This document shows positions 38,504 to 61,685 of a stretch of 64,000 nt of DNA, piece by piece. Position numbers and translations under genes: made by a program. The notes below the pieces were generated by a model. That model did not search any database. It had not been told where the DNA came from and was given only the letters and a program-made list of their open reading frames with translations. Source of the DNA: Paracoccus amoyensis (GTDB lineage: Bacteria; Pseudomonadota; Alphaproteobacteria; Rhodobacterales; Rhodobacteraceae); the NCBI RefSeq assembly GCF_014490725.1, contig NZ_JACOQL010000005.1, positions 186,001-250,000 of the forward strand. The letters are read 5' to 3'. How positions within the stretch are numbered: position 1 is the first letter of the stretch; each line of letters starts with the position of its first letter.

Positions 38504-38593
38504 GGACAGTTGGCCGAGTGGTCGAAGGCGCACGCCTGGAAAGTGTGTAGGCGGGGAACCGTCTCGAGGGTTCGAATCCCTCACTGTCCGCCA
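38504..38593 (+). tRNA. tRNA-Ser (anticodon GGA)
   Basis: The 90-nt cloverleaf has acceptor arms GGACAGT and ACTGTCC, a G discriminator and an encoded CCA. The D arm is TGGCCGAGTGG, the anticodon stem is CACGC/GTGTG with loop CTGGAAA giving anticodon GGA, and a long class II variable arm follows. The T arm is GAGGGTTCGAATCCCTC. The accessory region starts right after it, so it is probably an integration site, although I found no second copy of its 3' end in the window. Confidence 0.97.
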
Positions 38594-39389: not shown

Positions 39390-40000
39390 ATGCGGGGACT
39401 GAACATATACCAAACCGCATGGACCGGGCTGGATACACAAAGTTTAGGACACTCCCTTCGCTCGCTGCTGTGCGCAATAAAACTGGCCGCGCTTGGATCC
39501 TCACCGCTGCTCCAAGTGTCGCCATCTCCCGTCCCGACGCTTGCACTACTGAAAACCCACCGCCTGATTAACCAAGACAAGCTCACCTCAACGCCACCTC
39601 AACCCTTGGCTGCAGTTTTCGTGCAGGTTGTGCCGCTCAATGCCGCTTGATGCGGTCGAATGGTGGAATGAGAATCGCCAGAAATCAAACCGTTGCCCTG
39701 CCTACCAATTTTGGACCATTTGAGGCCGGAGTTTTCGGCATCTCGGTCTTGGACCTGAACCGAACGGAACGGCGATCCGACCGGGATTAACGTTGGCCCA
39801 CTGGGCAACAACGATGCTGCCGTGCTCGATCCGCAACCCGTTAGGAAGCGGATCAACAAGGACTCAACTAGGGGGCCAGAGCGTAGCAGGTCCGGCGCAA
39901 AAAAAGCCAGCCGCCAGTCATGAATGCGTGCTGGGACGAGGCCCAAGCCGCAGTCGTGTACAAGACATGAACTGCTCGTGGTTCCAGCTGTAAGATCCCA
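39390..40000. other. Non-coding, degenerate accessory DNA
   Basis: About 600 bp with only short frames of poor codon character on both strands. I see no clear promoter, repeat or known protein fragment here. The stretch just after the tRNA (38594-38966) is similar; it contains only a 12-bp-period double copy of GGTAGCATTTC at 38650-38672. Confidence 0.5.
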
Positions 40001-40669
40001 TCAAGCGAGCGCCTCGCGTAAACTTTTTGGAGGTGCGCGATCTTGGAGCAAATTCAGCGCGCTTTCGACATGCTCCAGATGATGCACCATGGCCTGCTTG
40101 GCCGCTTCAAGATCCCGGTTCTTCAGATGTAACAGGATTTGCTCATGCTCGTCGGGGCCGCAGTTGTGCAAATTGGTATCGCGAAAGGCCGCCATGATCA
40201 GTGAAGTCCTGCTCACCAGATCGCGCATGAGACCGCACAGAAACTCAGCCTCGGCCATTTCCGCCAGCATGACGTGAAAACCGCCCGAGAGTTTGATGAT
40301 GTCGCGCTGATTGTTGTTATGGTTGGCGATCCGTTCCTTCGCGACATGTTCGAACATCTCGACCAGCTTGGTTGCATCCAGTTCGGTGAAAAGGCGCTCC
40401 AGAACGCGCTGCTCGACCGCAGCGCGAATGTGAAAAATGTCTTTTGCATCAGCGACACTGGGCTTCGCGACAACAGCACCCTTGTTGCTCTCGATGACCA
40501 CCAACCCTTCGCGCTCCAGCGTGGCCAGAACCTGACGGATCCGCGCGCGACTTACGCCGAACACCTCGGCCAGCTCCGCTTCCTTTAGTCGCGTGCCGGG
40601 CCGCAGTCGACGATCCGCGATCGACAACCAGATCCGCTCTGCGATCTGCTCGACAGTCAGTGTATCCAT
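40001..40669 (-). CDS. GntR family (FadR subgroup) transcriptional regulator
   Basis: About 222 residues from ATG 40669; an in-frame ATG at 40702 is possible. The N-terminal winged helix (LTVEQIAERIWLSIADRRLRPG, VFGVSRARIRQVLATLEREGL) is followed by the all-helical FCD ligand-binding domain from about residue 75 (DIFHIRAAVEQRVLERLF, EHEQILLHLKNRDLEAAKQAMVHHL split). FCD regulators usually bind a carboxylate with a metal and release DNA. It is divergent from the catabolic operon, with a 22-bp operator between them that recurs at 42280. It is the likely repressor of the island. Confidence 0.92.
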   Translation of the reverse strand: MDTLTVEQIAERIWLSIADRRLRPGTRLKEAELAEVFGVSRARIRQVLATLEREGLVVIESNKGAVVAKPSVADAKDIFHIRAAVEQRVLERLFTELDATKLVEMFEHVAKERIANHNNNQRDIIKLSGGFHVMLAEMAEAEFLCGLMRDLVSRTSLIMAAFRDTNLHNCGPDEHEQILLHLKNRDLEAAKQAMVHHLEHVESALNLLQDRAPPKSLREALA

Positions 40670-40752
40670 GCGCCGCACCCGCCCCGAAAATATCCTTGCC
40701 ATCCACATACAGCGACCGAAGCGCGCCGGTCCAGATACAAATGGCCTCAATA

Positions 40753-40774
40753 TTGTTGACAATATAGTCGACAA
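40753..40774. promoter_or_regulatory. GntR-type operator 1 (divergent promoter)
   Basis: The 22-bp site runs from TTGTTGACAA (40753-40762) to GTCGACAA (40767-40774). Read on the minus strand it is TTGTCGAC-N-ATAT-NN-T-NN-ACAA, the same pattern as the site at 42280-42301. It contains a -35-like TTGACA (40757-40762). It lies 33 bp before the flavin reductase-like gene and 84 bp before gntR. Confidence 0.72.
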
Positions 40775-40806
40775 GAATTAGCTGATGAAGGTCAGCGAGG
40801 GATGTC

Positions 40807-41424
40807 ATGGAATTCGATCTTACCTGTCTCGATTCGCAGGACCGCTATCGCCTGCTCACCAATTTTGTCGGACCGCGCCCCGTTGCGCTGGTGACTACGC
40901 GCAACCAATCGGGCGCGAATAACGGGGCACCGATGAGCTTCTTCAACGTCTTCTCGCACGATCCGGCGATCCTTGCGCTTGGCATCCAGCCGCGACTGGA
41001 TGGCCGCGAGAAAGACACCGTGGCCAATATCCGGCGCAGCGGCCAGTTCACCGTCAACATGGTAGATATGCCCCTTTCACGCACCATGCTGGTCTGTGGC
41101 CTAGGGGTCGAGACCGATGTGGATGAACTTGAACTCGCCGGCGAACGGGTTGCTGACGGGGTGCAGGTCGACTGCTGTTGGTTACCGGCCAGCCCGTGCG
41201 CGATGGAATGTCGTGTCGATCGCCTGATCGAGTATCCCCGGCGGGTGATCGTGCTGGGCGAAGTCGTGCATATGCATGTCCGCGGCGACTGTCTGGACCC
41301 GGCGGGTCGCTATGTCGATCCGTCGATTTACCATCCGATCGCGCGCCTCCATGCCGACAATTACATCGTGGCCGATCAGCAGTTCGAGCTGAAAGCGCCG
41401 CAGCTTGACGAACTTCTTTCGTGA
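40807..41424 (+). CDS. Flavin reductase family (FMN-binding split barrel) protein
   Basis: The protein has 205 residues of the flavin reductase-like fold: RPVALVTTRNQSGANNGAPMSFF, split into the typical PRPVALVTT and APMSFFNVFS segments, then GQFTVNMVD and a Cys-rich middle. Stand-alone members supply reduced flavin to monooxygenases or act on small oxidised substrates, but no oxygenase component is in this island. GAGGGATGTC precedes the ATG. It is the first gene of the catabolic island and overlaps the racemase frame if the GTG at 41421 is used. Confidence 0.88.
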   Translation: MEFDLTCLDSQDRYRLLTNFVGPRPVALVTTRNQSGANNGAPMSFFNVFSHDPAILALGIQPRLDGREKDTVANIRRSGQFTVNMVDMPLSRTMLVCGLGVETDVDELELAGERVADGVQVDCCWLPASPCAMECRVDRLIEYPRRVIVLGEVVHMHVRGDCLDPAGRYVDPSIYHPIARLHADNYIVADQQFELKAPQLDELLS

Positions 41425-41435
41425 CCGGAAACCGC

Positions 41436-42200
41436 ATGCGCCTACTTCTTATCAATCCGAACGGGACTTCCTCGATGACGGCCCAAGCCTCGCGATCAGC
41501 GCGGCAAGTCATTCTGAAGTCGACAGATATCATCGAAAAAACGGGAATAGGCGCGCCGTTGAGCATCGAGGGTTATGCAGATGAGGTGATGTCGATACCT
41601 TCGATGCTCGCCCAGATCGCCGAGGCGGAGGCTGACGGAGCCGAGGCGACGGTGATCGCATGCTTCGACGATCCCGGCCTTGATGCCGCGCGCGAGATTG
41701 CCGCCGGTCCGGTCATCGGTATCTGTCAGGCAGGCGTGCAGGCGGCGATGGTACTGGCAAAACGGTTTTCGATCATCACCACCCTGCCGCGATCAGTCCC
41801 CGCGATCGAGGATCTGGTCTACCGCTACGGCGCGGAACGTCATTGCCGCAAGGTGCGCAGCATCAACCTGCCGGTCCTGTCGCTGGAATCCGAGCGCGCG
41901 CACGCCTACTCGGTCCTGCTGGGCGAGATCGCCAAGGCGCGGGATGAGGACGGCGCAGAGGCTGTCGTTCTGGGCTGCGCGGGGATGTCGGATCTGGCAG
42001 GCAAACTGTCCGCCGATACCGGCGTGACCGTGATCGACGGAGTGATTGTCGCAGTCAAGCTGGCCGAGGCGCTGATCGGTGCGGGTCTGAAAACCTCAAA
42101 AACGAATGCCTATGCCTTTCCGCGCGCCAAGGGAAATTCACGCGACGAATCAAAATCGAGGAGCCGCGGTTTCCAAGCTGCTGTCCAAACGAGCATCTAG
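41436..42200 (+). CDS. Asp/Glu/hydantoin racemase family protein
   Basis: About 254 residues. Start MRLLLINPNGTSSMT is typical for hydantoin racemases. The two catalytic Cys of the family are visible in IACFDDPGLDAARE and VLGCAGMSDLAG. These enzymes racemise 5-substituted hydantoins or related acids by two-base chemistry. A GTG at 41421 overlapping the previous stop (GTGA) would add five residues. The Ser/Arg-rich C-terminal tail (RDESKSRSRGF) extends past the usual end. In context it points to a chiral cyclic amide as the substrate class. Confidence 0.88.
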   Translation: MRLLLINPNGTSSMTAQASRSARQVILKSTDIIEKTGIGAPLSIEGYADEVMSIPSMLAQIAEAEADGAEATVIACFDDPGLDAAREIAAGPVIGICQAGVQAAMVLAKRFSIITTLPRSVPAIEDLVYRYGAERHCRKVRSINLPVLSLESERAHAYSVLLGEIAKARDEDGAEAVVLGCAGMSDLAGKLSADTGVTVIDGVIVAVKLAEALIGAGLKTSKTNAYAFPRAKGNSRDESKSRSRGFQAAVQTSI

Positions 42201-42279
42201 TTCGTCTGCTGGGCGAAACATTGTTTCGCAGTCCCGAAAGCGACATTCTGTGCATAGATCAGGTTTTATGACGACAAAA

Positions 42280-42301
42280 TTGTCGACAATATAATTGACA
42301 A
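42280..42301. promoter_or_regulatory. GntR-type operator 2 (transporter operon)
   Basis: The 22-bp site begins with the perfect palindrome core TTGTCGACAA (42280-42289) and ends in ATTGACAA (42294-42301). It matches operator 1 at the conserved TTGTCGAC, ATAT and ACAA positions. A half-site CGACAA lies just upstream (42272-42277). It includes a -35-like TTGACA (42295-42300) and is 110 bp before the first permease gene. Confidence 0.72.
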
Positions 42302-42411
42302 ACAAGGAGATCGATCTCAAGCTTCGTGAAAGAGCGATAGTTTGGGGCAGACAGAAGAACCAACGAGGCAGATGAAAAGCTGCCTGAAAAGAGGGGAGGA
42401 CCGTCAAGGTC

Positions 42412-43379
42412 ATGCTGGTAGTCATCATCAAGAAGCTACTGAACGCCGCGCTCGTCATGCTGGCAGTTTCTTTTCTGGCCTTCCTGATCTTTCAACTCGC
42501 CGGTGATCCGGTGGACATGATGTCCAGCGAGCAATCGACACAGGCGGACCGCGACCTGCTGCGCGAAAGGCTGGGCCTGAACGATAACTTTCTGGTCCAG
42601 TATGCGCGTTTCGTTGCCAATGCCGTGCAAGGCAATTTCGGTATCTCCTATCGCAACGGACAGGAAGTTCTGGGACTGATCGCCGATCGGTTCCCGGCAA
42701 CGATGGAACTGGTCCTAGTGGCGACGGTGCTGTCGCTGCTGATCGGGCTGCCCCTTGGCATTCTGACCGCGATCAAGCGTGGCACATGGTATTCCGAGAT
42801 TCTGCAATTCGGTTCGATCATCGGGGTGTCGCTGCCCAGCTTTGTCGTCGGCATCCTGTTGATCCTCGTCTTCTCGGTCACGCTGGGCCTGCTGCCCGCC
42901 TTCGGCCGGGGCGATGTCGTTGATTTGGGCTGGTGGTCCACCGGCTTTCTGACGCAGTCTGGACTGATGGCGCTGATCCTGCCGTCGATCTCGCTTTCGC
43001 TTTATCAGGTGACGCTGATCATGCGTCTGGTCCGCGCCGAGATGCTGGAGGTCATGCGCTCGGATTACGTTAAATTCGCGCGCGCCCGCGGCATTCCACG
43101 CTATCGCATCTATTTTCGTCACGCGCTACGCAACTGTCTGATGCCGGTGGTCACACTGACCGCGATGAACGTCGGCACGTTGATCGCCTTCGCGCTGATC
43201 ACCGAGACCGTGTTCCAGTGGCCGGGCATGGGCATGCTGTTCATCCAGGCGGTGACATTCATTGATATCCCGGTAATGGCGGCCTATCTGTGCATCGTCG
43301 CCCTGATCTTCGTTTCCTGAACACCATGGTCGACATCACATATGCGGTGATCGACCCCCGTCTGCGCGACGCGAAATAG
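42412..43379 (+). pseudogene. ABC transporter permease (DppB type), frameshifted at the C-terminus
   Basis: This is the first membrane subunit of a peptide/nickel-type importer, with six helices and the BPD loop (EVMRSDYVKFARARGIPRYRIYF split) that contacts the ATPase. The frame stops at 43320 after VALIFVS. Shifting by one base at about 43313-43317 restores a normal end (LNTMVDITYAVIDPRLRD, stop 43377-43379). About 20 residues including the last helix end and the conserved DPR motif are lost in the raw reading. It may be a sequencing error or a real loss of transport. Confidence 0.85.
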
Positions 43380-43390: not shown

Positions 43391-44332
43391 ATGGCCGATC
43401 TGAATGCAATTCCCGTGCGCACCTCGCGTCTGTCCCGTGCCCGCAAAAGCGATCTTTGGTGGTCCTTCAGCCATTCTCTCTCTGCACGACTGGCCTTCTT
43501 CGTGCTCCTGGTGCTGATCCTGTCGGCCTTTCTGGCTCCGCTGATTGCGCCGCAGAACCCCCACGATCCGGCGCAACTCGACATGTGGAAATCCGAACTG
43601 CCGCCGATATGGCTGGATGGCAGCGAATGGCCCTATCTTCTGGGCACCGACACCCAGGGCCGCGACATGTTGTCGGTAATGCTCTATGGCACGCGAACCT
43701 CGGTGATGATCGGGATCGCATCCGTGGCATTTTCGTTGATCATAGGGCTGAGCCTGGGGCTCGTGGCGGGATATTTCGGCGGCTTCGTGGACAATATCCT
43801 GATGCGGATCGGGGATGTAGTCCTGTCGATCCCGACGATCCTGATCGCCATTCTGGTTTCAGCCGTGGTCCGGCAGATGCTGCCGCCTGATCTGCGCGAG
43901 ATCGGTGCGTCAGCGGTTCTGGTGCTCGCCATCACTATCTCTGGTTGGGTGCAATATGCCCGAACGGTGCGCGCACAGACGATTGTCGAGAAAGGCAAGG
44001 AATATGTAATGGCGGCCCGGCTGCTGAAAGTGCCGGCACGCCGAATCATGGGACGTCATATCCTGCCGAACACGCTCACCCCGGTTCTGGTCGCTGCGAC
44101 GCTCAGCTTCGGCATGGCGATCCTTACCGAAGCGACCCTGTCCTTCCTGGGCATCGGAATGCCGCCGGGGCAACCGTCACTGGGCACGCTTATCCGCGTC
44201 GGCAACCAGTATCTGTTCTCGGGCATGTGGTGGATCGTGATCTTCCCAGTTCTGCAACTGTCGCTGCTCGTCATCTCGGTGAACCTGCTGGGCGACTGGC
44301 TGCGAGACGCCCTGAACCCGAAGCTGAGGTAA
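43391..44332 (+). CDS. ABC transporter permease (DppC/OppC type)
   Basis: The second membrane subunit of the importer, 313 residues. The N-terminal OppC-type helix is LAFFVLLVLILSAFLAPLIAPQ, the domain marker is LLGTDTQGRDMLSVMLYGTRTS, and the ATPase-contact loop is EYVMAARLLKVPARRIMGRHILP. Six helices are predicted, as in DppC. It ends in DWLRDALNPKLR, the usual DPR-like terminus. It lies 11 bp after the frameshifted permease and 2 bp before the first amidohydrolase gene. Confidence 0.94.
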   Translation: MADLNAIPVRTSRLSRARKSDLWWSFSHSLSARLAFFVLLVLILSAFLAPLIAPQNPHDPAQLDMWKSELPPIWLDGSEWPYLLGTDTQGRDMLSVMLYGTRTSVMIGIASVAFSLIIGLSLGLVAGYFGGFVDNILMRIGDVVLSIPTILIAILVSAVVRQMLPPDLREIGASAVLVLAITISGWVQYARTVRAQTIVEKGKEYVMAARLLKVPARRIMGRHILPNTLTPVLVAATLSFGMAILTEATLSFLGIGMPPGQPSLGTLIRVGNQYLFSGMWWIVIFPVLQLSLLVISVNLLGDWLRDALNPKLR

Positions 44333-44334
44333 TC

Positions 44335-45531
44335 ATGTCCGATCTGCTGCTGAAGAACGTCCGCCCCTTCGGAGAAGCGCCCACTGACGTGCTGGTCCGC
44401 GACGGAGTAATTGCCGAAATCGGCCAGAACCTTTCCGCGCCCATGAACATCACGACCGAGGACGGCGGCAATGCGATCCTGTGGCCGGGCCTGATCGACT
44501 CGCACACCCATCTGGACAAGACCACCTGGGGCATGGACTGGCACGAGAACAACCGTGACGCCGTGCTGCGCAGCCGGATCGATTTCGAACGCGACAACCG
44601 GCTGGCGATTGGTATCGACCCGCACCGGCAATCGATGCGCCACGCGATCGGTCTGGCTGCACATGGCGCCAGCCACATTCGCAGCCATGTCGACATCGAC
44701 CCGGTCCACGAGCTGCGTCTGGTGGAGGGCGTGCAGGAAACGCGGCAGAAACTGCGCGGCATCATCGACATTCAGCTAGTCGCCTTCCCGCAATCGGGGG
44801 TGATGGTCATGCCCGGCACTATCGAGCTTCTGGATGAGGCGCTGTCCAACGGGTGCGAAGTTCTGGGCGGCATCGATCCCTGCGGCATCGACCGTGATCC
44901 CAAGGGGCAACTGGACGCTCTCTTCGCACTCGCGGACAGGCACGGCTGCGATGTCGACATCCATCTGCACGAACCGGGTGATCTCGGCGCATTCACGATG
45001 GAACTGATTTTCGAGCGCGTCCGCGCGCATGGCATGAACGGAAAATTCGCGATCAGCCACGCTTTCGCGCTTGGCATCAACGATCATCTTCGTGTCGGCA
45101 GTCTGATCGACCAGATTGCCGAACTGGACATCGCGATCCTGACGACCGGAGCGCCCTCGGCAACGGTGCCTTCCGTCAAACGGTTGGTGGCGGCGGGCGT
45201 GCGGGTCGGCGCGGGCTGCGATGGCATTCGTGACACCTGGGGGCCGTGGGGCCAGCCCGACATGATCCACCGCGCAACGGTAATCGGGATGAAGAACGGC
45301 TTTCGTTCGGACGATGATTTGCGGCTGGCGCTGGAGATCGTGTCGCAGGGCGGCGCCGACGTGATGCGCCTTGAAGGCTATGGCGCCGCGATCGGCTGCA
45401 AGGCTGATTTCACACTGCTCGACGGGCAGACCGTTGCCCATTCCGTCGTCAATCGTGCCGCGCGTCCATTAGTCGTCAAGGGTGGCAAGGTCGTCGCGCG
45501 TCACGGCACCTGCATCGTGGAAGCACCATGA
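44335..45531 (+). CDS. Amidohydrolase, cytosine deaminase (CodA)-like
   Basis: The protein has 398 residues. The metal-dependent barrel starts at LIDSHTHLDK, with the HxH ligands and the CodA-style Lys-containing HLDKT, followed by HIRSHVDIDP, the HEP motif in IHLHEPGD, ISHAFALG and the catalytic Asp in GCDGIRDTWGPWG. This set resembles cytosine deaminase and related cyclic-amide deaminases. ATG 44335 follows GAGGTAATC. The stop overlaps the next gene (ATGA). It probably deaminates or opens a nitrogen heterocycle imported by the transporter. Confidence 0.9.
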   Translation: MSDLLLKNVRPFGEAPTDVLVRDGVIAEIGQNLSAPMNITTEDGGNAILWPGLIDSHTHLDKTTWGMDWHENNRDAVLRSRIDFERDNRLAIGIDPHRQSMRHAIGLAAHGASHIRSHVDIDPVHELRLVEGVQETRQKLRGIIDIQLVAFPQSGVMVMPGTIELLDEALSNGCEVLGGIDPCGIDRDPKGQLDALFALADRHGCDVDIHLHEPGDLGAFTMELIFERVRAHGMNGKFAISHAFALGINDHLRVGSLIDQIAELDIAILTTGAPSATVPSVKRLVAAGVRVGAGCDGIRDTWGPWGQPDMIHRATVIGMKNGFRSDDDLRLALEIVSQGGADVMRLEGYGAAIGCKADFTLLDGQTVAHSVVNRAARPLVVKGGKVVARHGTCIVEAP

Positions 45532-47027
45532 TGACCAGTCACCCCCTCGCAGATCTGGAATTGGGTGCCCGACCACAGGGCCGCAGCCTGCTGACGGCGG
45601 ATTGGGTTCTGGCACAAAGTGATGCAGAACCCGTGTTGTTGAAACATGGTCAGGTGGTGATTGAGGGCGACCGGATCATCTTTGCCGGACATGACTTTCA
45701 GGGCGAGGTCGCGCGCCGAACAGACTTTGGCCACGCACTGATCTCGCCCGGACTGATCGATCTTGACGCACTTTCCGATCTCGACACGACCATACTTGGC
45801 ATCGACCACTACCCGCCCTGGAAGAAGGGCCGCGTCTGGCCGGTATCTTATGTCAACGCCGGTCCCTACGAGATGTATTCACCCGAGGATCTGGCGTTCC
45901 AGAAGCGTTTCGCATTCGGACAGCTGTTGTTGAACGGGATCACCACGGCCGCACCGATCGCCTCGCTGTTCTATCGCGAATGGGGCGAGAGCGTGGCCGA
46001 GTTCGACGCCGCCGCCGATGCCGCAGGTGAGATGGGGTTGCGCGTCTATCTGTCTCCGGCCTTTAGGTCTGGCGGGATGGTGCTGCACGGACCGGGTGAC
46101 ATGCGCGCACATTTCGATGAAGAGCGCGGTTTGTCGGGGCTTGCCGAGGCGGTCGATTACATCGGTCGACAGACGGGCCGCCATGACGGGCTGGTACAGG
46201 GGATGCTCGCGCCCGACCGGGTCGAGACCTCGACCCTTCGGTTGCTGCGCGCGACCATGGACGCAGCCCGGGATCTGGATATGAAGGTGCGCCTGCATAT
46301 GGCGCAGGGCGCGATGGAGGTCGAAACCGTCCGCGCCCTACACGGCACGACCGCGCCCTCGTGGATGGCGGCCGAAGGGCTTCTCTCTGACCGGCTCATC
46401 GCGCCACACGGAACACATGCGACAACGGAAGATCTGGGACATTACGCGCGCAACGGCGTTTCGGTGGTGCATTGCCCGCTAGTCTCGGGCCGGGGCGGCG
46501 GCAGTCTGAACAGTTTTTCTCGGTTGCGTGACATGGGGATCAATATCGCCATGGGCACCGATACAGCACCCGCCGACATGCTGATGAACCTGCTCGTCGG
46601 CCTCATCACCTGCCGGATGAACGACGACGGTCCGGAGCGCATCGCCTGTCGCGATCTGTTCAACGCCGCGACGCTCGGCGGGGCGCGTGCGCTTGGCCGC
46701 GATGATATCGGGCGGATCGCGGCGGGGGCCAAGGCCGATCTGGTCGTATTCCGGCTGGACGACCCGGTCATGGCACCGACAGTCGATCCCGTCACCACGC
46801 TGATCGTCGGTGGTTCGGGCAAGGTGACGGATGCCGTCTTCGTCGATGGCCGTCTCTCCATGCGCGCTGGTGAAGTCGCTGGAATCGACATGGCGACAGC
46901 CCGCGATCGTGCGCAGGAACAATATGACCGGCTGATCGCACAATATCCCGCAAGAACATGGGATCACCCGCCCGTCTCAGAGATTTTCCCTCCTAGCTAT
47001 CCCGTGAAGGAAAGCCAGAATGCTTGA
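45528..47027 (+). CDS. Chlorohydrolase/TrzA-like amidohydrolase lacking the N-terminal HxH motif
   Basis: The protein has 499 residues. It has the amidohydrolase outer beta-sandwich and barrel: ISPGLIDLDALSDLD in the place of the usual GLIDxHxH, RLHMAQGAMEV, LIAPHGTHAT, VVHCPLVSGRG and the late GTDTAPADML Asp. The two N-terminal metal-binding His are replaced by DLDAL. The rest of the His/Asp set is retained. It may use an altered metal site or be a divergent clade within the 'chlorohydrolase family'. It is coupled by ATGA to the previous gene and overlaps the ATPase gene by 8 bp. Confidence 0.85.
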   Translation: MMTSHPLADLELGARPQGRSLLTADWVLAQSDAEPVLLKHGQVVIEGDRIIFAGHDFQGEVARRTDFGHALISPGLIDLDALSDLDTTILGIDHYPPWKKGRVWPVSYVNAGPYEMYSPEDLAFQKRFAFGQLLLNGITTAAPIASLFYREWGESVAEFDAAADAAGEMGLRVYLSPAFRSGGMVLHGPGDMRAHFDEERGLSGLAEAVDYIGRQTGRHDGLVQGMLAPDRVETSTLRLLRATMDAARDLDMKVRLHMAQGAMEVETVRALHGTTAPSWMAAEGLLSDRLIAPHGTHATTEDLGHYARNGVSVVHCPLVSGRGGGSLNSFSRLRDMGINIAMGTDTAPADMLMNLLVGLITCRMNDDGPERIACRDLFNAATLGGARALGRDDIGRIAAGAKADLVVFRLDDPVMAPTVDPVTTLIVGGSGKVTDAVFVDGRLSMRAGEVAGIDMATARDRAQEQYDRLIAQYPARTWDHPPVSEIFPPSYPVKESQNA

Positions 47028-48006
47028 TACAGCCTCACCCTGTCTGGAAGTGCGAAATCTGGTCGTCGAGTTTCCCGGCCGCCACGGAACCCTGACGGCA
47101 TTAAATGATGTCTCCCTTGCGATCCGCAGCGGAGAGATCCTGGGCGTCGTCGGCGAAAGCGGGGCGGGAAAGTCGATGACCGGCGCGGCCATTCTGGGGC
47201 TGCTGGAACGTCCCGGCCAGATCGCAGGAGGCGAAATCCTGCTGTCCGGCCGCCGGATCGACGCATTGAGCGACAGGGAGATGGAAAAGGTCCGTGGTCG
47301 TGAGATCGGAGCGATCTTTCAGGATCCGCTTACCTCACTGAACCCGCTGTTCACGGTCGGCGCGCAACTGTCCGAAACCATTCGCCAGCACATCCCCGGC
47401 AGCAGCCGCACCAAGGCGCGGGCGCGTGCCATCGAGCTTCTGCAAGAAGTCGGTATCCCCGGCCCGCAGGAACGTATCGACCATTTCCCCCACCAGTTTT
47501 CGGGGGGCATGCGGCAGCGCGTCGTCATTGCTCTGGCACTTGCAGCACGCCCCCGCCTGATCATCGCGGACGAACCGACGACTGCGCTAGACGTATCGAT
47601 TCAGGCGCAGATCAGCGGCCTCCTGCGGAAGCTGAGCAAGGAGCACGATACGGCCGTAATGCTGGTCACGCACGACATGGGCGTGATCGCAGAAACCGCT
47701 GATCGCGTTGCGGTGATGTATGCGGGGCGTCTGATCGAGATCGGTCCCGTGGACGAAGTGCTCAAATCCCCGGCGCATCCCTATACTCGCGGGCTGATGG
47801 CTTCGATTCCCGCGCTTGGTGCAAGGGTCGAGCGGTTGCACCAGATTGACGGCTCGATGCCGCGGCTGAACGCCATTCCGCAGGGCTGTGCCTTTAATCC
47901 CCGCTGCAAACAGGCAGGGCCACGCTGTCGGCGCGAGCGCCCGGACCTCATGCCCACCCGAACCGGAGAGGCGGCGTGCTGGCTTTATGAAGGAGGTGTC
48001 GAATGA
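47020..48006 (+). CDS. ABC transporter ATP-binding protein (DppD/OppD type)
   Basis: The protein has 328 residues. Walker A is GESGAGKS, the Q-loop is [13 protein letters not shown], the signature is [15 protein letters not shown], Walker B is [12 protein letters not shown], and the H-loop is [10 protein letters not shown]. The C-terminal oligopeptide-type extension has Cys in [15 protein letters not shown], possibly binding an Fe-S cluster as in DppD. It pairs with the next gene, which it overlaps by 4 bases. Confidence 0.95.
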
Positions 48007-48965
48007 ACGTGACCGGAGCTGCGGCACTGGAGGTTGATCGGCTGGATCGAGTGTTCGATGTCTCGTCTCCGTTCCTGAACCGGGTGCTGTATCGGCAGGG
48101 ACGGCGTTATCTGCATGCCGTCAACGACGTAAGTTTCACCGTACCTAAAGGCGGGTGTCTCAGTCTGGTAGGTGAGTCTGGTTGCGGCAAATCGACGGTC
48201 GCCCGGCTCGTGACCGGCATCTATCGGCCAAGCGCGGGCGAAATTCGCTTTGCGCCCGGTCGATCCGGCCAACCCTTGTCGGCGCAGATGATCTTTCAGG
48301 ATCCCTATGCCTCCTTGAATCCGAGATGGCGCGTGAAAAACATCATCGCCGAGCCATTGCGCGAACTGAAGCTGCGAGACACCGAAGCTGCGATCAGCGA
48401 CCGCGTCGCAGAATTGCTGACCGTCGTCGGACTGAGCGTCGCCGACGGCGAGAAGTTTCCGCATGAGTTCTCGGGTGGGCAGCGCCAGCGTATCTCGATC
48501 GCCCGCGCCTTGGCATCCGAGCCTGAATTTCTGGTCTGTGACGAGCCGACCAGCGCGCTCGACGTATCGGTACAGGCGCAGATCCTGAATCTGATGCGCC
48601 GTCTGCAGGACGAGCTTGGGTTAACCTATCTGTTCATCAGCCATGACCTTTCGGTCGTGCGTCACATGTCGGACCGTATCGCCGTCATGTATCTGGGGCG
48701 CATCGTCGAGCAGGCAGAGACCGAAGTTCTGTTCGCCGATCCCAAGCATCCCTACACGCGCTTGCTGCTGGAAACGATTCCGGACGTCAACAGTCCGAAC
48801 CGCGACCGCCGCACGGTCGCCGGCGAGGTGCCAAGCCCGCTGGCCCCGCCGTCGGGCTGCACATTTCATCCGCGCTGCCCACTGGCGCAGAACCGCTGCA
48901 AGACCGAACGCCCGGCGCTTGACAGCAAATCCGACGGGGCCAGCGTTGCCTGTCACTTCGCGTAA
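48003..48965 (+). CDS. ABC transporter ATP-binding protein (DppF/OppF type)
   Basis: The second ATPase, 320 residues. It has GESGCGKST, MIFQDPYASLNPR, FSGGQRQRISIARAL, LVCDEPTSALD and ISHDLSVVRHM. The C-terminal extension (GCTFHPRCPLAQNRC) carries the conserved Cys. It completes a DppBCDF-like system with the two permeases and the binding protein encoded next. AAGGAGGTG precedes the ATG. Confidence 0.95.
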   Translation: MNVTGAAALEVDRLDRVFDVSSPFLNRVLYRQGRRYLHAVNDVSFTVPKGGCLSLVGESGCGKSTVARLVTGIYRPSAGEIRFAPGRSGQPLSAQMIFQDPYASLNPRWRVKNIIAEPLRELKLRDTEAAISDRVAELLTVVGLSVADGEKFPHEFSGGQRQRISIARALASEPEFLVCDEPTSALDVSVQAQILNLMRRLQDELGLTYLFISHDLSVVRHMSDRIAVMYLGRIVEQAETEVLFADPKHPYTRLLLETIPDVNSPNRDRRTVAGEVPSPLAPPSGCTFHPRCPLAQNRCKTERPALDSKSDGASVACHFA

Positions 48966-49010
48966 CGGCTTCCGCGCAAAACAATAAAACTCAGCCAACA
49001 GGAGACTTTC

Positions 49011-50576
49011 ATGAAACTTCTCAACACGATGGCCGCCGCACTGGCGCTGTCTGTCAGTGCCGTCGCCGTTTATGCGGAGAACACTGTCAAATGGGGCTCA
49101 AGGGCGGATATATATTCGCTCGATCCCAACTCGATCCCGTCGACTGCCAATCTCGCCTTCCTCAATCACATCTACGAGGGGCTGGTTCGCTATGACAAGG
49201 AGTTCGGACTGGAGCCCGCATTGGCGACCGAATGGGAGTTGATCGAAGGCCCCGTATGGCGCTTCAAGCTGCGCGAGGGCGTCAAGTTCCATGACGGATC
49301 GGATCTGACGGCCGATGATGTGGTGGCCTCATTCCAGCGTGCGGCCGACCCGGCCTCGCCGCTGAAAGGCAACATGCCGCTCTTCAAGGATATCCGTAAG
49401 GTCGACGACTTCACCGTCGAGATCGGCGTGACCACGCCCTCGTCGTTGTTCCTCAACGACATCACCAATATCTTCGTGTTCGATCAGGGCTGGCTTCAGG
49501 CCAACAACACCGAAAAGCCGACTGATTTCGGAGCGGGGGTCGAAGGCTATGCGACCAACAATACCAATGGCACCGGCCCGTTCATTCTGGAGAGCCGCGC
49601 GCCCGACAGCAAGACCGTATTGCTGGCGAATGCCGACTGGTGGGACGAACGACAGCACAATATCGATCGGCTGGAATTCGTGCCGATCAGCAGCGCCGCG
49701 ACCCGGATCGCCGCATTGCTGTCAGGTGAGGTCGATCTGATCGACAGCGCGCCCATGCAAGATCTGGAACGGCTGAAGGCGGATCCATCAATTAACGTCC
49801 AAACCCTGACAGAGTTGCGCACCGTCTTTCTGGCGATGAACCGGCGCGAAACCTTGCCCGATGGTCGGCCGAACCCGTTCAACGATTTGAAGGTCCGTCA
49901 GGCGGTGGAAGCGCTGATCGATCGCGAGCTTATCAATCAGCGCGTCATGCGCGGACTGGCGCGGCCGTCCGGCTCGCTCATCGCGCCTGAAGTTGCGGGT
50001 TATGCCGCATCTCTTGATACATTCGAACCCGCGGATCCAGAAAAAGCCGCAGCGCTTCTGCAAGAAGCCGGCGTCGATTCACTGCGCTTCACCTATACCT
50101 GCATGAGCGACGAAAGCATCAACGAGGAAGACTGGTGTCAGGGGATCGCGAATATGCTGGCCCGCGCCGGGATGCAGGTCGATATCGACATGGGACCGCG
50201 TTCGGTCCAGTCGCCCAAACGCTCGCAGGGCAGAACCGAGATGTTCAACCTCAGCTGGGCAAACGAACCCACGCTGGACGCATTCTCGTTGCTGTCGCAG
50301 GTTCTGGCATCGCCGGATGATGCCTACGGCGTCGCCAACTACGGCGGATGGTCCGTGCCGGAACTGGACGCCCTTGTTAAACAAGCGGCCGAAGCAACTG
50401 ACCCTGCCGAGCGGCTCCAGCTTGAGGAGCAGGCGTTGCGTATCGCCAAGGAGCAGGTCTTGCTGATCCCGTTGCACCAACAGCCAATTGCCTGGGCCAG
50501 CCGCGACCGGGTGGAGAAAATCGATCTGCGCGCCGACAACAAGCCGCGTCACTGGTTTACCACCGTCACCGAATGA
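49011..50576 (+). CDS. ABC transporter substrate-binding protein (SBP family 5)
   Basis: The protein has 521 residues. A Sec signal (MKLLNTMAAALALSVSAVAVYA, cleavage near AYA-EN by rough eye) directs it to the periplasm. The family 5 signature is seen in YEGLVRYDKEFGLEPALATEWEL (split), WRFKLREGVKFHDGSDLTADDVV and GTGPFILE. Family 5 proteins bind peptides, nickel, opines or other amides, so the substrate is open. CAGGAGAC precedes the ATG. A hairpin follows the stop. Confidence 0.93.
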   Translation: MKLLNTMAAALALSVSAVAVYAENTVKWGSRADIYSLDPNSIPSTANLAFLNHIYEGLVRYDKEFGLEPALATEWELIEGPVWRFKLREGVKFHDGSDLTADDVVASFQRAADPASPLKGNMPLFKDIRKVDDFTVEIGVTTPSSLFLNDITNIFVFDQGWLQANNTEKPTDFGAGVEGYATNNTNGTGPFILESRAPDSKTVLLANADWWDERQHNIDRLEFVPISSAATRIAALLSGEVDLIDSAPMQDLERLKADPSINVQTLTELRTVFLAMNRRETLPDGRPNPFNDLKVRQAVEALIDRELINQRVMRGLARPSGSLIAPEVAGYAASLDTFEPADPEKAAALLQEAGVDSLRFTYTCMSDESINEEDWCQGIANMLARAGMQVDIDMGPRSVQSPKRSQGRTEMFNLSWANEPTLDAFSLLSQVLASPDDAYGVANYGGWSVPELDALVKQAAEATDPAERLQLEEQALRIAKEQVLLIPLHQQPIAWASRDRVEKIDLRADNKPRHWFTTVTE

Positions 50577-50587
50577 CCATGACCCGT

Positions 50588-50610
50588 ACGGCGCCCCTTT
50601 CGGGCGCCGT
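50588..50610 (+). terminator. Hairpin between the binding-protein gene and the last amidohydrolase
   Basis: 9-bp arms ACGGCGCCC (50588-50596) and GGGCGCCGT (50602-50610) enclose CTTTC. No T-run follows. It lies 12 bp after the binding-protein stop and may protect that message or attenuate the downstream gene, rather than terminate fully. Confidence 0.55.
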
Positions 50611-50634
50611 CAGCTTGACAGCCTCGAGACAGCC

Positions 50635-52098
50635 ATGACCGCTACCATTTTCCGCCACGCGACCGTTATCCCCGTCGATCCCAAGCGGCGCATCATCGAG
50701 AACGGCGCGGTTCGCGTCGTCGGTGATCGCATTGATCGGGTCGGCGCTGACGCCGAGGTCGCAGTAGAACCCGGCGACCGGATCATCGACTGCCGTCACA
50801 AGATCATTATTCCCGGCCTGATCGACGCGCACGGCCATGCAGGTCATTGCCTGATCCGCAGCATCGCATCCGACCTCACGCCGCAGTGGATGAAAATTGT
50901 CACGCCGATCTATTATCACGCGACGACGCGCGAATTCTGGTATGCGGACGGCCTTGTCTCGGGACTCGAACGGCTGCGGGCGGGGGTGACGACAGGTGTC
51001 AGCATCATCTCGTCCATGCCGCGCAGCGACGATCCGGAATTTGCCGTCAATCATGCGCGCGCCTATGCGCAGATCGGCCTGCGCGAGATCATCTGCACCG
51101 GCCCCGCAGGTTTGCCGTGGCCACGTGACGTGACGCGTTGGGAGACCGGCGAACCCATCCGTCGCAGCATAAGTTTTCCCGAAATGATGGAAGGCGCCGA
51201 GGCCGCAATCCAGACCCTCGATGGCAGCGCCGATGGACGGATCCGCGTCTATCTGACACCGTTTACAATCGTGCCCTCGATCGATCCGTCGAATGTCTCG
51301 ACCCCCGATCAGGCAGTTTCGCTGACGGCCGATGACAGAATGCATGCGCGCGCCGTACGGGAACTGGCGCGCAAACATGGTGTCAGGCTGCATTCTGACG
51401 CCTTTGCGGGCCATATCCGGCTGGCATGGCAGGACAAGGAAAACGCTCTGCTCGGCCCCGACATCCATCTCCAACACTGCTGGGGCATCTCACCTGCCGA
51501 GATCGACATTCTCGCCGAAACCGGCACGCATGTGACCCATGCCCCTCCGGGCCGGTCAACGCCGGTGATCGAGATGGTTGCACGCGGCATCAACGTAGCG
51601 GTGACGACCGACGGTACAGCGCCCAGTCGCCATTTCGACATGCTTCAGACTGCACGTCTCTTTCAGTCGGTACAGCACGTCCTTCGCAATCACGATCGCT
51701 TCTTCTTTCCACCCGGAAAAGTGCTGGAAATGATCACAATCGGCGCCGCGCGCGCGCTTGGGCTTGAGGATGAGATCGGTTCGCTAGAGCCAGGTAAGAA
51801 AGCTGACCTCCTCGTCATTGATCTGAACAAGCCACACCTGACCCCTCGCTGGATGCCGGTTCACAGACTGATCCACCAGTCTTCTGGTGCCGATGTTGAA
51901 ATGGTCATGGTAAACGGCAGCATTCTTCTGGATCAGGGCCGCTCCACAAGGATGGACGAAACTGAAGCTCTCATCTTAGCGCAGCATGAGGCTGACAAAC
52001 TGGTCAGACGCGCTGGCGCGGCTTCCTATATGCACGATCCTGGTTGGGGGCAGCTTTATAGGACTCTCGACGAACCGATCACGCCACCGCAGTTCTGA
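50635..52098 (+). CDS. Amidohydrolase (AtzA/TrzN deaminase-like)
   Basis: The protein has 487 residues. The metal motif HGH is in GLIDAHGHAGHCL, followed by VRLHSDAFAGHI, the IHLQHCWGIS His, VTHAPPGRST and the catalytic Asp in VAVTTDGTAPSRHFD. The barrel and C-terminal LGLEDEIGSLEPGKKADLLVID are typical of the AtzA/TrzA/guanine deaminase group. It is the third amidohydrolase of the island, and its metal site is complete, unlike that of the second. It is the last gene before the broken plasmid fragments. Confidence 0.9.
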   Translation: MTATIFRHATVIPVDPKRRIIENGAVRVVGDRIDRVGADAEVAVEPGDRIIDCRHKIIIPGLIDAHGHAGHCLIRSIASDLTPQWMKIVTPIYYHATTREFWYADGLVSGLERLRAGVTTGVSIISSMPRSDDPEFAVNHARAYAQIGLREIICTGPAGLPWPRDVTRWETGEPIRRSISFPEMMEGAEAAIQTLDGSADGRIRVYLTPFTIVPSIDPSNVSTPDQAVSLTADDRMHARAVRELARKHGVRLHSDAFAGHIRLAWQDKENALLGPDIHLQHCWGISPAEIDILAETGTHVTHAPPGRSTPVIEMVARGINVAVTTDGTAPSRHFDMLQTARLFQSVQHVLRNHDRFFFPPGKVLEMITIGAARALGLEDEIGSLEPGKKADLLVIDLNKPHLTPRWMPVHRLIHQSSGADVEMVMVNGSILLDQGRSTRMDETEALILAQHEADKLVRRAGAASYMHDPGWGQLYRTLDEPITPPQF

Positions 52099-53861: not shown

Positions 53862-56258
53862 ATGAACGCTCCTTTCAAGCAGGCCGAGCGTCTGGGTCGT
53901 CTGACCACGGAGCTTGGCGCCGATGTTCTGGCCCTCTTGCGCTTTGATGGCAGCGATCATCTCAATGACCTTTTCGAGTATCGCGTCGAGGCGCTGGCCA
54001 CCCGTGACGATCTGGATTTTGACGCACTCGTCGGCACCCATGCGACGGTCGAGATTGACGCCCATGACCAGCTGCGGCCCTTCGACGGCATCGTCACAAG
54101 CGCCCGGTGGGCGGGCGTGGGCGAGAACGGGCATCGCTATGATCTGACCCTGCGCCCTTGGTTCTGGCTGGCGGGGCGGCGCAGGAACCAGCGGATTTTC
54201 CACAACAGGACAGTCATCGAGATCCTGCAGGAGCTGCTCTCCGACTATGCGTCCTTGGGCGATCCGGCGCTGGAGATCAGCCTGTCGAAGGACTACCCGA
54301 GCCTCGAATACACGGTGCAATATCGCGAATCTGACCTCGATTTCGCCCGCCGCCAGATGGAGCGGGCCGGGATCAGCTTCCATTTCCGCCACGCCAAGGG
54401 CAGCCACACGCTGGTCCTGACCGATGACGTTCTGGCGCATGAGGAGATCGGGTCGCGCCCGTTCAAGCGCTATGACGGCCATCACCAGTTCGAACAGGAG
54501 CATTTCTGGGACTGGGCGCCCGAGCGCCATGTGACCACAGGTGCGATCCGGCTGGTGGATTACAACTTCAAGAAGCCGACCCAGGCGATGGAGGCCGACC
54601 GGCTGGGCGACGCGGCCCATGCGCAAGGCGCCATCGAGAGCTTCGACTATCCCGGCGATTATCTGGCGCAGGATGTGGGCCGGCTGGTGGCGGGGCTCAG
54701 GACCGAGCAGGAGCGTGGTGCCGACCGCCGCAACCGGGCGGTGGGCGATTGCGTCAGCCTCGGCGCCGGCATGCGGGTGATCTTGTCAGGCGACAAGGTG
54801 CCGGGAACGGGTGAGACCTATCTGTGCCTCTCGGCCAGCCATCACTTTGTCAGCGAGGCCTATGGCTCGGGCGGTCCGGGCAGCGACGGCTACAGCTTCA
54901 CCGGCAGCTACACCCTGATGCCCGACACCGCGCCCATGGCCCCGCCACGCCGCACGCCCGCGGCGGTGGTACAGGGCCCACAAACCGCCGAGGTCGTCGG
55001 CGAGGGCGAGATCGACTGCGACGAATACGGCCGCATCCTGGTGCGCTTTCACTGGGATCTGGCGAACGCCTATTCGATGCGCTGCCGGGTCAGCCAGAAC
55101 TGGGCCGGCGCCGGCTGGGGCGGCATGGTCATCCCAAGGATCGGGATGGAGGTACTGGTCGAATTCCTCGAAGGCGATCCCGACAAGCCGGTGGTCGTGG
55201 GCAATGTGTTCAACGGCAAGAACGATGCGCCGTACCCGCTGCCAGCGCATAAGACCAAGGCCGTCTGGAGGTCAAAGACCCACAAGGGCGAGGGTTTCAA
55301 CGAAATCAGCTTCGAAGATGAGCAAGGGCAGGAGAACATTGCCATCCACGCCCAGAAGGACCAGACGCTGAAGGTCCTCAACAACCGCATGAAGCGGGTG
55401 GACAACGATCAGATCGAAAGCGTGGGTAGCAACAAGTCGATCGAGATCGGCAGCAACCATCAGGAACGCATCGGCGGGTCGATGAACCTGACGGTTGGTG
55501 GCGGCAAGCTGGGCCTCTTCGCCGCACTTGCCGGGATCGCGGGGCAGGCCACGAAGGACGCGCTGAACGTGGCGGAGGAGGTCGGCGATCCCTCGATCCC
55601 AGCCTTTCTGGGCGGGGTTGTGGCGGCGACCGTGGGCGGAGAGGTTGCGTCCAGCCCGCTGATCTCGGCCTTCGACGGGGCCGGTCAGAACAAGGCGGTT
55701 GCGGGGGCTGAACAGGTCGGCACGGGCACCGCGCTTGGCGGTGTCCTCTCGGCGATCATGCCGGTCTCGGGGGTGATGAACACGCTGGTCGAGAAGTTCA
55801 AGGCCGACACGATAGGTCTCGCACGGACCGAGCAGATCGGGCTGTTCAAGAACACCATGGTCGGCGCGGTCCGCAACACCATGGTCGGCCAGAAGGAGTT
55901 CACCAAGGTCGGGGTCGAGCAGCGCCTGCAGGTCGGCAAGACCAAGACCGTCGATGTGGGCGAGGAATACACGACTCATACCGGCCAGCGTTCGGCGCAC
56001 AGTTCCGGCAAGCTTTACCAGATCTCGGCGCAGGAGAAGTTCGAGGGCACGTCGAAGGTCTGGGAGATCAAGGCCGACGATACGCTGCTGCTGTCAGCAC
56101 CGGGCGGTTATGTCGAGATCAACAAATCCGGCGTCCGCATCCGCGGGCTGAAGGTGCTGATCGAGGGCAACGCCATCGACTTCAAGTCCGGCGGCCCCGG
56201 CGAAGGCAGCAAATGCCTCCGCGCCATGGCCAAATCCGCAACGCCGTTCGTGAGGTAG
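53862..56258 (+). CDS. vgrG: Type VI secretion tip protein VgrG with hydrophobic insertion
   Basis: The protein has 798 residues. The gp27-like part covers about 1-370 (FEYRVEALA, YTVQYRESDLDFARRQMERAGISFHF split). The gp5 OB fold is at about 385-455 (DEYGRILVRFHWD, SQNWAGAGWGGMVIPRIGMEVLVEFLEGDPDKP split, VVGNVFNGKNDAPYPLPA). The beta-helix of VG repeats starts at about 500. Residues about 546-645 break this helix with a Gly/Ala-rich hydrophobic stretch (KLGLFAALAGIAGQATKD ... FLGGVVAATVGGEV), after which VG repeats resume. No core T6SS gene is in the window, so this is an orphan vgrG cargo locus. Confidence 0.95.
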   Translation: MNAPFKQAERLGRLTTELGADVLALLRFDGSDHLNDLFEYRVEALATRDDLDFDALVGTHATVEIDAHDQLRPFDGIVTSARWAGVGENGHRYDLTLRPWFWLAGRRRNQRIFHNRTVIEILQELLSDYASLGDPALEISLSKDYPSLEYTVQYRESDLDFARRQMERAGISFHFRHAKGSHTLVLTDDVLAHEEIGSRPFKRYDGHHQFEQEHFWDWAPERHVTTGAIRLVDYNFKKPTQAMEADRLGDAAHAQGAIESFDYPGDYLAQDVGRLVAGLRTEQERGADRRNRAVGDCVSLGAGMRVILSGDKVPGTGETYLCLSASHHFVSEAYGSGGPGSDGYSFTGSYTLMPDTAPMAPPRRTPAAVVQGPQTAEVVGEGEIDCDEYGRILVRFHWDLANAYSMRCRVSQNWAGAGWGGMVIPRIGMEVLVEFLEGDPDKPVVVGNVFNGKNDAPYPLPAHKTKAVWRSKTHKGEGFNEISFEDEQGQENIAIHAQKDQTLKVLNNRMKRVDNDQIESVGSNKSIEIGSNHQERIGGSMNLTVGGGKLGLFAALAGIAGQATKDALNVAEEVGDPSIPAFLGGVVAATVGGEVASSPLISAFDGAGQNKAVAGAEQVGTGTALGGVLSAIMPVSGVMNTLVEKFKADTIGLARTEQIGLFKNTMVGAVRNTMVGQKEFTKVGVEQRLQVGKTKTVDVGEEYTTHTGQRSAHSSGKLYQISAQEKFEGTSKVWEIKADDTLLLSAPGGYVEINKSGVRIRGLKVLIEGNAIDFKSGGPGEGSKCLRAMAKSATPFVR

Positions 56259-57324: not shown

Positions 57325-57517
57325 AATGGCTGCTATTGCTTTGGCTCCAGTGGGTGCTGCGCTCTGTACAGGCCCTCAGGCGCTCGTTTGTGGCGGTGTT
57401 GCCTTGCTTGCATTAGGTATCGGCGCTCTGATGGTTCAAGGTGCTGACGATGATGCAGAAGAAAATCTATCGGGAGCACAAACCGGCGCAGAAGCTTGCT
57501 CGACATGTGAACCGCCA
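57088..57517 (+). repeat. Direct repeat copy 1 (adaptor tail + effector N-terminus)
   Basis: This 430-bp segment starts GACGACGCAACGC and ends in ACATGTGAACCGCCA. It covers the last 78 codons of the DUF4123 gene and the first 60 or so codons of the effector gene. It is almost identical to 58365-58799; by eye only about 20-25 differences and a 5-bp insertion are seen. Confidence 0.93.
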
Positions 57518-57823
57518 CAATGCGGACCTCTCAATGACGAGATCCGAGGGCTGCGCGATGAAATAGAGAGCCGTTACAGAGATATGGAAATCGACCAATA
57601 TGACCTGTTCAATCGAGCTTACTCTAACCATTCACCGCTTTTCGTGAACGGCGTAAAAATCGGAAGCTGGGAAGGACATTTAATGCAGTACGAACAAAAG
57701 CAGACTCGCCTTCGCAATAAGACCGCTGATGCTCGGGGCCTTGGCTGTTCGATCACGACGCCAGATGCTGACCGCTGGGGAGGTCGGTCGGCACCGCTGC
57801 GCCCGAATCGCATATACCGATAG
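57326..57823 (+). CDS. Putative T6SS cargo effector, copy 1 (intact)
   Basis: The protein has 165 residues. The N-terminal 40 are strongly hydrophobic (LAPVGAALCTGPQALVCGGV and ALLALGIGALMV), fitting a membrane-crossing or adaptor-binding segment. A Cys-rich linker follows (ACSTCEPPQCG). The C-terminal toxin-like domain has an Asp/Glu/Arg-rich helix and the motif GSWEGHLMQYEQKQTRLRNK then GLGC. This GSWxGH...KQxxLR...GC pattern recurs in the second copy and resembles the ends of polymorphic toxins, possibly a nuclease; activity is inferred. AGGAGG is 5 bases before ATG. Confidence 0.72.
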   Translation: MAAIALAPVGAALCTGPQALVCGGVALLALGIGALMVQGADDDAEENLSGAQTGAEACSTCEPPQCGPLNDEIRGLRDEIESRYRDMEIDQYDLFNRAYSNHSPLFVNGVKIGSWEGHLMQYEQKQTRLRNKTADARGLGCSITTPDADRWGGRSAPLRPNRIYR

Positions 57824-57833
57824 GATGATAGAT

Positions 57834-58220
57834 ATGGATTGGAAGAAAATAGGTAAGATTCTTGATCTTGTTGCGAGCGAAGTAAAGCGACAAGACGGCA
57901 CCGTATGGAAGGCGTCGGCCAGCGAGCTGCAATCCCAATACAATGAAATGCCTTTCTGGATTTTGCTCTATGAGGATTCTGACCTTCAGAATGTGCATCG
58001 CGTTTTTCAAAAAATAGTTCGGCCGCATTTTTCTGAGATTAAGCCTGTAAAAATAACTGTTGCCTATCTTATGATGGTTGATGGACAAAAGATCCAAACT
58101 GATTATTTGGAGGGTGAGGGCGAGATAATGAATGATCAGCATTTAATGGGGCGTCGTCCAACGTCAATGGGGATGGGAGATTTCATAGTATTTAAGGGTA
58201 TGAACTCAACGCGCTCATGA
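57834..58220 (+). CDS. Putative immunity protein, copy 1
   Basis: About 128 residues from ATG 57834, 10 bp after the effector stop, with a TAGGA site. No signal or membrane helix is seen, so it is cytoplasmic. It is a clear paralogue of the product of 59089-59487: shared WK-x-SA-x-ELxSQ, PxWILLxEDSD, the VxPxF segment and a DGxxI motif. Position right after a toxin-like gene is the usual immunity arrangement. The second half is rich in Met and Gly. Confidence 0.7.
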   Translation: MDWKKIGKILDLVASEVKRQDGTVWKASASELQSQYNEMPFWILLYEDSDLQNVHRVFQKIVRPHFSEIKPVKITVAYLMMVDGQKIQTDYLEGEGEIMNDQHLMGRRPTSMGMGDFIVFKGMNSTRS

Positions 58221-61650: not shown

Positions 61651-61685
61651 CAAAGCCCCATCCCCTCATGGCGCTCGGCCGCCGC

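Follow-up and report, generated by a model that had tools for sequence, protein, structure and literature searches.

The window, by which we mean the whole 64,000-nucleotide stretch of DNA analyzed, comes from a 3.73 Mb Paracoccus genome in 17 contigs. It carries a gntR gene whose closest relatives are in Paracoccus species (Table 1). Operon 1 (40807–42200) runs divergently from gntR and has two genes. Operon 2 encodes an oligopeptide-type ABC transporter along with amidohydrolases. From gene spacing, we infer that the genes at 43391–52098 form one operon with the permease gene at 42412. The second ABC ATPase (48003–48965) was identified from its ORF translation and homologues rather than by a domain scan. 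The longest ORF would start gntR at 40774; we dropped this start, as homology begins at 40669 and the candidate operator would become coding. An Rfam search of 39500–42500 gave no match.

Table 1. Genes and candidate operator boxes at the locus, in window coordinates
Feature	Position	Strand	Description
gntR	40001–40669	−	GntR-type regulator with FCD effector domain, 222 aa; Pfam GntR (PF00392) 3.3e-15, FCD (PF07729) 6.8e-15
Site 1 box 1, TTGTTGACAA	40753–40762		8/8 to TTGTNNACAA; holds TTGACA 40756–40761
Site 1 box 2, TAGTCGACAA	40765–40774		7/8 to TTGTNNACAA; 12 bp after box 1
Operon 1 gene 1	40807–41424	+	Flavin-reductase-like FMN protein; Pfam Flavin_Reduct 3.2e-23
Operon 1 gene 2	41421–42200	+	Asp/Glu/hydantoin racemase family; Pfam 1.9e-54
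Site 2 outer degenerate box, ATGACGACAA	42268–42277		6/8 to TTGTNNACAA
Site 2 central box, TTGTCGACAA	42280–42289		8/8 to TTGTNNACAA
Site 2 downstream box, TAATTGACAA	42292–42301		6/8 to TTGTNNACAA, right half good; holds TTGACA 42295–42300, probable −35
Operon 2 gene 1	42412–43320	+	ABC permease; Pfam BPD_transp_1; frameshifted near 3′ end
Remainder of operon 2	43391–52098	+	Permease, two amidohydrolases, two ABC ATPases, solute-binding protein, third amidohydrolase; Pfam, NCBIfam

Among solved structures, the top sequence match of the flavin-reductase-like protein is 2-nitrobenzoate nitroreductase (4z85), and those of the racemase-family protein are a putative hydantoin racemase (3qvj, 3qvk) and allantoin racemase (5lfd). 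Across the cluster, the top matches comprise hydantoin/allantoin racemase, N-isopropylammelide amidohydrolase, deaminases and nitroreductase. These matches hint at nitrogen heterocycles as substrates but name none. The initial annotation called the region an island, for which base composition gives no support. About 1.4 kb separates the end of gntR from a tRNA-Ser gene (38504–38593). The patchy occurrence of close orthologs of the regulator (9 of 125 genomes in the genus) fits an accessory region, while base composition is no different.

Two near-identical 22-bp operators had been proposed from the sequence, one between gntR and the first catabolic gene and one before the transporter operon, each including a −35-like TTGACA. 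Both are present, at 40753–40774 (site 1) and 42280–42301 (site 2). A common pattern, TTGTCGACNATATNNTNNACAA, fits both exactly, site 1 on the minus strand and site 2 on the plus strand, and each holds its TTGACA. Site 1 occupies the gap between these divergent genes, with the likely gntR start (40669) about 84 bp away on one side and the start of the flavin-reductase-like gene 32 bp away on the other. Site 2 lies 110 bp upstream of the first permease gene.

The anatomy of the sites needs correction on two points. The sites were said to stand in opposite orientation, but they share 19/22 positions when read on the same strand, versus 17/22 on opposite strands, and each is near-palindromic (18/22 self-complementary positions in site 1, 16/22 in site 2). 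Neither is a single 22-bp operator: both break down into 10-bp boxes that follow TTGTNNACAA and recur every 12 bp, with two box starts in this phase at site 1 and three at site 2 (Table 1). Box pairs scoring at least 13/16 at spacing 12 occur four times in the whole window, all within the two sites; twenty other spacings from 10 to 30 yield seven such pairs in total. The core of an FCD operator, a GT-N2/3-AC palindrome near the regulator gene, is found in TTGTTGACAA, about 84 bp upstream of gntR.

Allowing up to three mismatches, TTGTCGACNATATNNTNNACAA has six matches in the window, all at 40753, 42268 or 42280, compared with 0.09 in dinucleotide shuffles of the window. A scan of the 3.73 Mb genome, which the initial annotation had suggested as a check, finds the pattern without mismatch at the two sites and nowhere else (reversed control: 0). 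Three more places appear at two mismatches. Two of them are within long reading frames; the third (C9:669206) falls in a gap, and a frame of at least 460 codons begins about 115 bp further on. The single box TTGTYRACAA occurs at 13 places in the genome and its reversed control at 7, which means that a lone box lacks specificity. Classed by a crude GC3 rule, the 11 places other than our two sites divide into 7 inside likely genes and 4 possible gaps. On closer inspection, one of these 4 (C10:300474; L124, 1501–1510) is a TTGTTGACAA box within the final 50 bp of a transposase-like frame of 180 codons, and it directly precedes a solute-binding-protein-like frame, both frames being named by eye. 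This box is possibly a third target, or chance.

Other Paracoccus loci conserve both sites in place, site 1 in 8/8 and site 2 in 7/7. One locus (L034) has no permease homologue in its 6.8-kb contig and yields only site 1, and two of the loci (L031 and L033) are from two strains named P. onubensis. At site 1, box 1 reads (A)TTGTYGACAA in 8/9 Paracoccus sequences including the window, with one change in the ninth (L032). Box 2 keeps a GTnnAC core in 8/9, L037 being the one that deviates. At site 2, ATTGTCKACAAnnnnnTTGACA is found in 8/8 Paracoccus sequences including the window. The position of the outer box at site 2 carries an outer TTGT instead in 5/7 relatives. Between gntR and site 1, GTCCA at 40729–40733 is invariant in 9/9 Paracoccus sequences and is followed a few bases later by a partly conserved AAATG-like stretch. 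GTCCA may belong to the gntR promoter or mark where a second factor binds.

At site 2, all 7 Paracoccus relatives have a TAnnnT hexamer 16 bp downstream of TTGACA (TACTGT, TACACT, TAGGGT three times, TAGGAT and TACGCT). The window reads TCAAGC at this −10 position, not TAnnnT, and its site 2 promoter may be weak. We rejected TATAAT at 42290–42295 as the −10 of the transporter operon because TTGACA-N16-TAnnnT is kept in the seven relatives instead; among the eight aligned sequences, only the window and L033 have this TATAAT. The first permease gene of the window is frameshifted at 43300–43320, which cuts the protein short at 302 aa, versus 322 aa in six relatives (the seventh, L038, was read in the wrong frame). 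The frameshifted permease and poor −10 may mean that the operon is decaying in this strain, or may reflect a sequencing error.

These promoters bear on the mode of control, for which the initial annotation took repression with a shared inducer to be the simplest model. Repression is favored at site 2, where TTGACA is conserved in 8/8 sequences with TAnnnT in 7/7 relatives and the downstream box overlaps the −35. At site 1, TTGACA is a less certain −35, since it is not conserved as such (exact in 5/9, TTGACT in 1 and TCGACA in 3).

The adjacent regulator belongs to the GntR superfamily and its FCD (FadR) subfamily, since both Pfam domains score above their cut-offs: the winged helix, starting at residue 6, with 55.9 bits versus 27, and the FCD domain with 56 bits versus 24.3. 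FCD effector domains are described as having 'seven or six helices' (PMC4494728), with six being the VanR arrangement (PMC7797058). An AlphaFold2 monomer model (pLDDT 89.4) has six main effector-domain helices (72–96, 99–117, 121–138, 142–162, 172–183 and 187–203) and a short one at the end (217–221). With six effector helices and no extra FadR-group helix, the predicted fold has the VanR-group arrangement. Good structural matches of the model are McbR/YncC (4p9f, TM 0.77/0.80), the VanR-type AlkR (9isw, 0.77/0.81) and 3ihu (0.76/0.82); the best solved relative by sequence is 3c7j.

Several positions are invariant in 24 aligned regulators. E30, R41, R45 and G64 are the positions that we equate with Glu34, Arg45, Arg49 and Gly66, DNA contacts given for Atu1419 in PMC7797058. 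H132, H175 and H197, the presumed metal ligands, are also invariant, as are the motifs NCGPDEH and LSG-G/A-FH. The presumed Asp/Asn ligand position, assigned from the FH motif, is an invariant serine (Ser128), so the regulators do not show the three His plus Asp/Asn of metal-binding FCD regulators.

To see how boxes are spaced upstream of gntR relatives, we assembled 62 non-redundant regions: regulators were matched in 101 of 118 loci, clustered at 88% identity, and regions shorter than 150 bp were dropped. The set represents the fetched loci, a subset of all regulator matches, and its members are related sequences rather than independent events. Of the 62 regions, 56 have one box or more (mean in shuffles 11.0, maximum 25), and 28 have two boxes spaced by 12 or 13 bp (mean in shuffles 0.008, maximum 1). 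The remaining 34 have no detected 12/13-bp pair, and 6 of the 62 have no box at the cut-off used. Relatives with at least 44% identity favor a spacing of 12 (seen in 10 regions, versus 2 with 13). Those further removed favor 13 (seen in 12 regions, versus 5 with 12) and add spacings of 21–22 and 34–35. Box sequence also varies with regulator subgroup, for example TTGTCTACAA in Ensifer and TTGTTAACAA in many relatives of 33–41% identity.

Similar sites occur beyond the genus. A matrix built from 17 Paracoccus sites, window included (training scores 28.0–38.7), was run on 29 non-Paracoccus loci (L039–L067); of the 39 loci, 8 are Paracoccus and two remote ones (L068 and L069, 27–31% identity) were excluded. 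Judged by record title, the 29 loci come from few groups (5 Pseudochrobactrum-like, 11 Ensifer-like, 11 related to Rhodobacter, 2 others) and are not 29 independent cases. One of them (L042), titled Bacillus subtilis SK6B4, is laid out as in Pseudochrobactrum and is probably a mislabelled or contaminated record. In 29/29 loci, the top match falls outside the mapped homologues of window genes, these homologues being what the mapping covered; an unverified open frame of at least 100 codons on either strand crosses 20 of the 29. The top matches score 17.6 to 35.9 and sit beside a gntR or solute-binding-protein homologue. Matches scoring at least 13 number 134 in the 29 loci, where each strand and each overlapping frame of an array counts separately, and 10 are inside mapped homologues. 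Shuffled sequence gave 3 such matches in 600,372 bases.

A stricter pattern was sought genome-wide in seven distant genomes picked from these 29 loci. Six genomes gave 8 exact matches, every one about 70–600 bp upstream of a solute-binding-protein homologue. The operator thus stays with the transporter in genomes whose gene order is unlike that of the window. At one mismatch, there were 18 further places, most of them not examined (reversed control: 4 at the same limit). The seventh genome had no exact match, and one of its four one-mismatch places is the gap between gntR and the solute-binding-protein gene.

Within the genus, we surveyed 125 genomes including the window's own. A relative of the regulator at E ≤1e-30 is present in 40 genomes, and one with at least 67% identity in 9. 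All 9 of the latter have the paired pattern at the locus with at most one mismatch; eight of them are the genomes of loci L031–L038, so this count is not independent of the Paracoccus alignment. Exact matches number 11 places in 9 genomes. Nine are at the close orthologs; of the other two, one is just upstream of a 47% relative (G494) and one is in a genome with no relative at E 1e-30 (G409). With up to one mismatch, the paired pattern occurs in 32/125 genomes, 14 of which have no GntR relative at E 1e-30. Two genomes (G424 and G483) have a one-mismatch match just upstream of their own 33–36% regulator relative. Strings beginning ATTGTTGACCA occur in 9 genomes of the genus (places not examined).

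In line with the first proposal, the sites look as though they serve the neighboring GntR/FCD regulator, and they take in two promoters of the cluster. In other alphaproteobacteria they track the regulator and transporter genes, also under a different gene order. We consider it likely, from sequence comparison, that they are two repressor operators of this VanR-like regulator, each a short array of phased 10-bp palindromes. The sequences show that the sites are present, that the exact pattern is unique in the genome, and that the sites are conserved and co-occur with regulator and transporter genes; binding, cooperativity, repression and an inducer are the parts of this model that we infer. 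Each array would consist of one full-strength TTGTNNACAA box and one or two weaker boxes at 12-bp center spacing. Regulator dimers would occupy the strong box and then, aided by it, the neighboring box, roughly a helical turn further on. At the transporter operon, regulator bound to the downstream box over the −35 TTGACA would shut out RNA polymerase. In the gap between gntR and the flavin-reductase-like gene, the array would repress both divergent genes, so that gntR would control its own expression. Release of the regulator would come from a compound that the cluster handles as substrate or intermediate, perhaps a cyclic amide or other nitrogen compound.

Alternatively, each site could be one 22-bp operator, with a single dimer (or dimer of dimers) reading the outer TTGT and ACAA and the inner boxes incidental. 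In its favor, TTGT on the outside and ACAA at the end occur at both window sites, and each 22-bp element is close to a palindrome. We nevertheless regard this reading as unlikely: the most conserved element is the first 10-bp box, which fits the known FCD unit GT-N2-AC, while the second box is variable, third boxes appear at the same phase, and several relatives have a single box only at the cut-off used. There is a similarly small chance that the regulator is an activator whose array recruits RNA polymerase to the flavin-reductase and transporter promoters. Some GntR regulators do activate, and the operator here is placed at the −35 or upstream of it. Against activation, a box overlaps the −35 hexamer itself, the usual position of a repressor, and the −10 is only 16 bp further on in relatives. 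Two functionally described FCD regulators, Atu1419 and NanR, are repressors (PMC7797058; PMC8012715).

Two further readings would take the sites away from the regulator altogether. Another transcription factor might use them, with gntR a bystander, and single TTGTYRACAA boxes do occur at 11 other genome places. This is very improbable given that the paired sites track gntR and its own upstream region across families and that box sequence changes with regulator subgroup. That the sites are conserved core promoters with no operator role is harder still to credit. The site 2 TTGACA does look like a −35, with a −10 in 7/7 relatives, but conservation reaches about 16 bp upstream of it, to a palindrome, and at site 1 it is the palindrome that is conserved and not TTGACA.

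The arrays have partial precedents. Suvorova et al. 2015 (PMC4494728), covering 36 FadR-subfamily groups, give a subfamily consensus with GT/AC boxes, and a 2-nt gap in several groups. Weaker additional half-sites lie 7–12 nt from the center in 13 groups, possibly reflecting oligomerization. The sites here share the A/T-rich palindrome, the GT...AC core and a weaker extra box on one or both sides. Unlike those extra half-sites, the second element here can be a nearly full box, as at site 1, in 12-bp phase. At site 1, a TAGTC half falls at 7.5–11.5 nt, within the 7–12 nt range. Site 2 differs in keeping the distal half better: its near half, TAATT, is degenerate and the good far half, GACAA, is at 12.5–16.5 nt. 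The arrays look like a conserved case of the FCD palindromes with extra half-sites that this source describes, with a regular phase; what is probably new is the case of this regulator.

Atu1419, a VanR-group repressor of Agrobacterium fabrum, has a similar 10-bp GT-N2-AC palindrome (ATGTATACAT), a VanR-type effector domain and sites in its own gene's intergenic region (PMC7797058). Its palindromes are 109–190 bp apart, for which looping by a tetramer was proposed and seen by EM, whereas the boxes here are 12 bp apart. Its fourth metal ligand is Asp/Asn where our regulator has Ser. The two proteins are modestly similar (phmmer E 1.9e-4, TM 0.52–0.62). Our initial expectation that Atu1419 would be a hydantoin regulator proved wrong. 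E. coli NanR, also GntR-type, binds closely spaced repeats as several cooperative dimers, but its repeats are GGTATA and it has a 32-residue N-terminal extension (PMC8012715), while the boxes here are palindromic. Neither site contains GGTATA direct repeats. Atu1419 thus provides the structural unit, a 10-bp palindrome, and NanR the precedent for dimers side by side. We searched the literature for tandem or 12-bp FCD operators, the pathway, TTGTCGACAA and a Paracoccus GntR regulon. Titles and the beginnings of abstracts, with few subscription journals and without RegPrecise, gave nothing on this regulator, and among the papers listed for TTGTCGACAA none was about a GntR operator, judging by title.

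A broader generalization is conceivable but doubtful: an alphaproteobacterial VanR-type clade, marked by NCGPDEH, LSG-G/A-FH and Ser in place of Asp/Asn, may read arrays of 10-bp palindromes at 12 bp with cooperative, side-by-side dimers. Several dimers would then sit next to each other on roughly one face of the DNA. In more distant relatives, where the motifs were not checked, the spacing is 12 or 13 bp and additional boxes occur around 21–22 and 34–35 bp. If true, FCD regulators would have a cooperative, palindrome-based way of binding that differs from both NanR repeats and Atu1419 looping. The 12-bp spacing offers a simple handle on side-by-side binding of FCD dimers.

The type of control is ordinary. 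The additions are the corrected anatomy, a regulon that extends across families, and possible impairment of the operon in this strain. The proposed regulon is testable, with one regulator, two operators and two operons, and similar sites accompany homologous transporters in other families. From it one can predict shared inducers for transporters and amidohydrolases whose substrate is unassigned.

Elsewhere in the window, a CRISPR-like array at 62180–62419 (61500–62800 examined) contains GTCGCCCCCTTCGCGGGGGCGTGGATCGAAAC, about 32 nt long, repeated four times at steps of 65–67 bp, with one change in the third copy. Two frames at 57326–58960 share a near-identical stretch around ADDDAEENLSGAQTGAEACSTCEPP, an apparent local duplication, and sit downstream of a frame that looks VgrG-like by eye (53862–56258).
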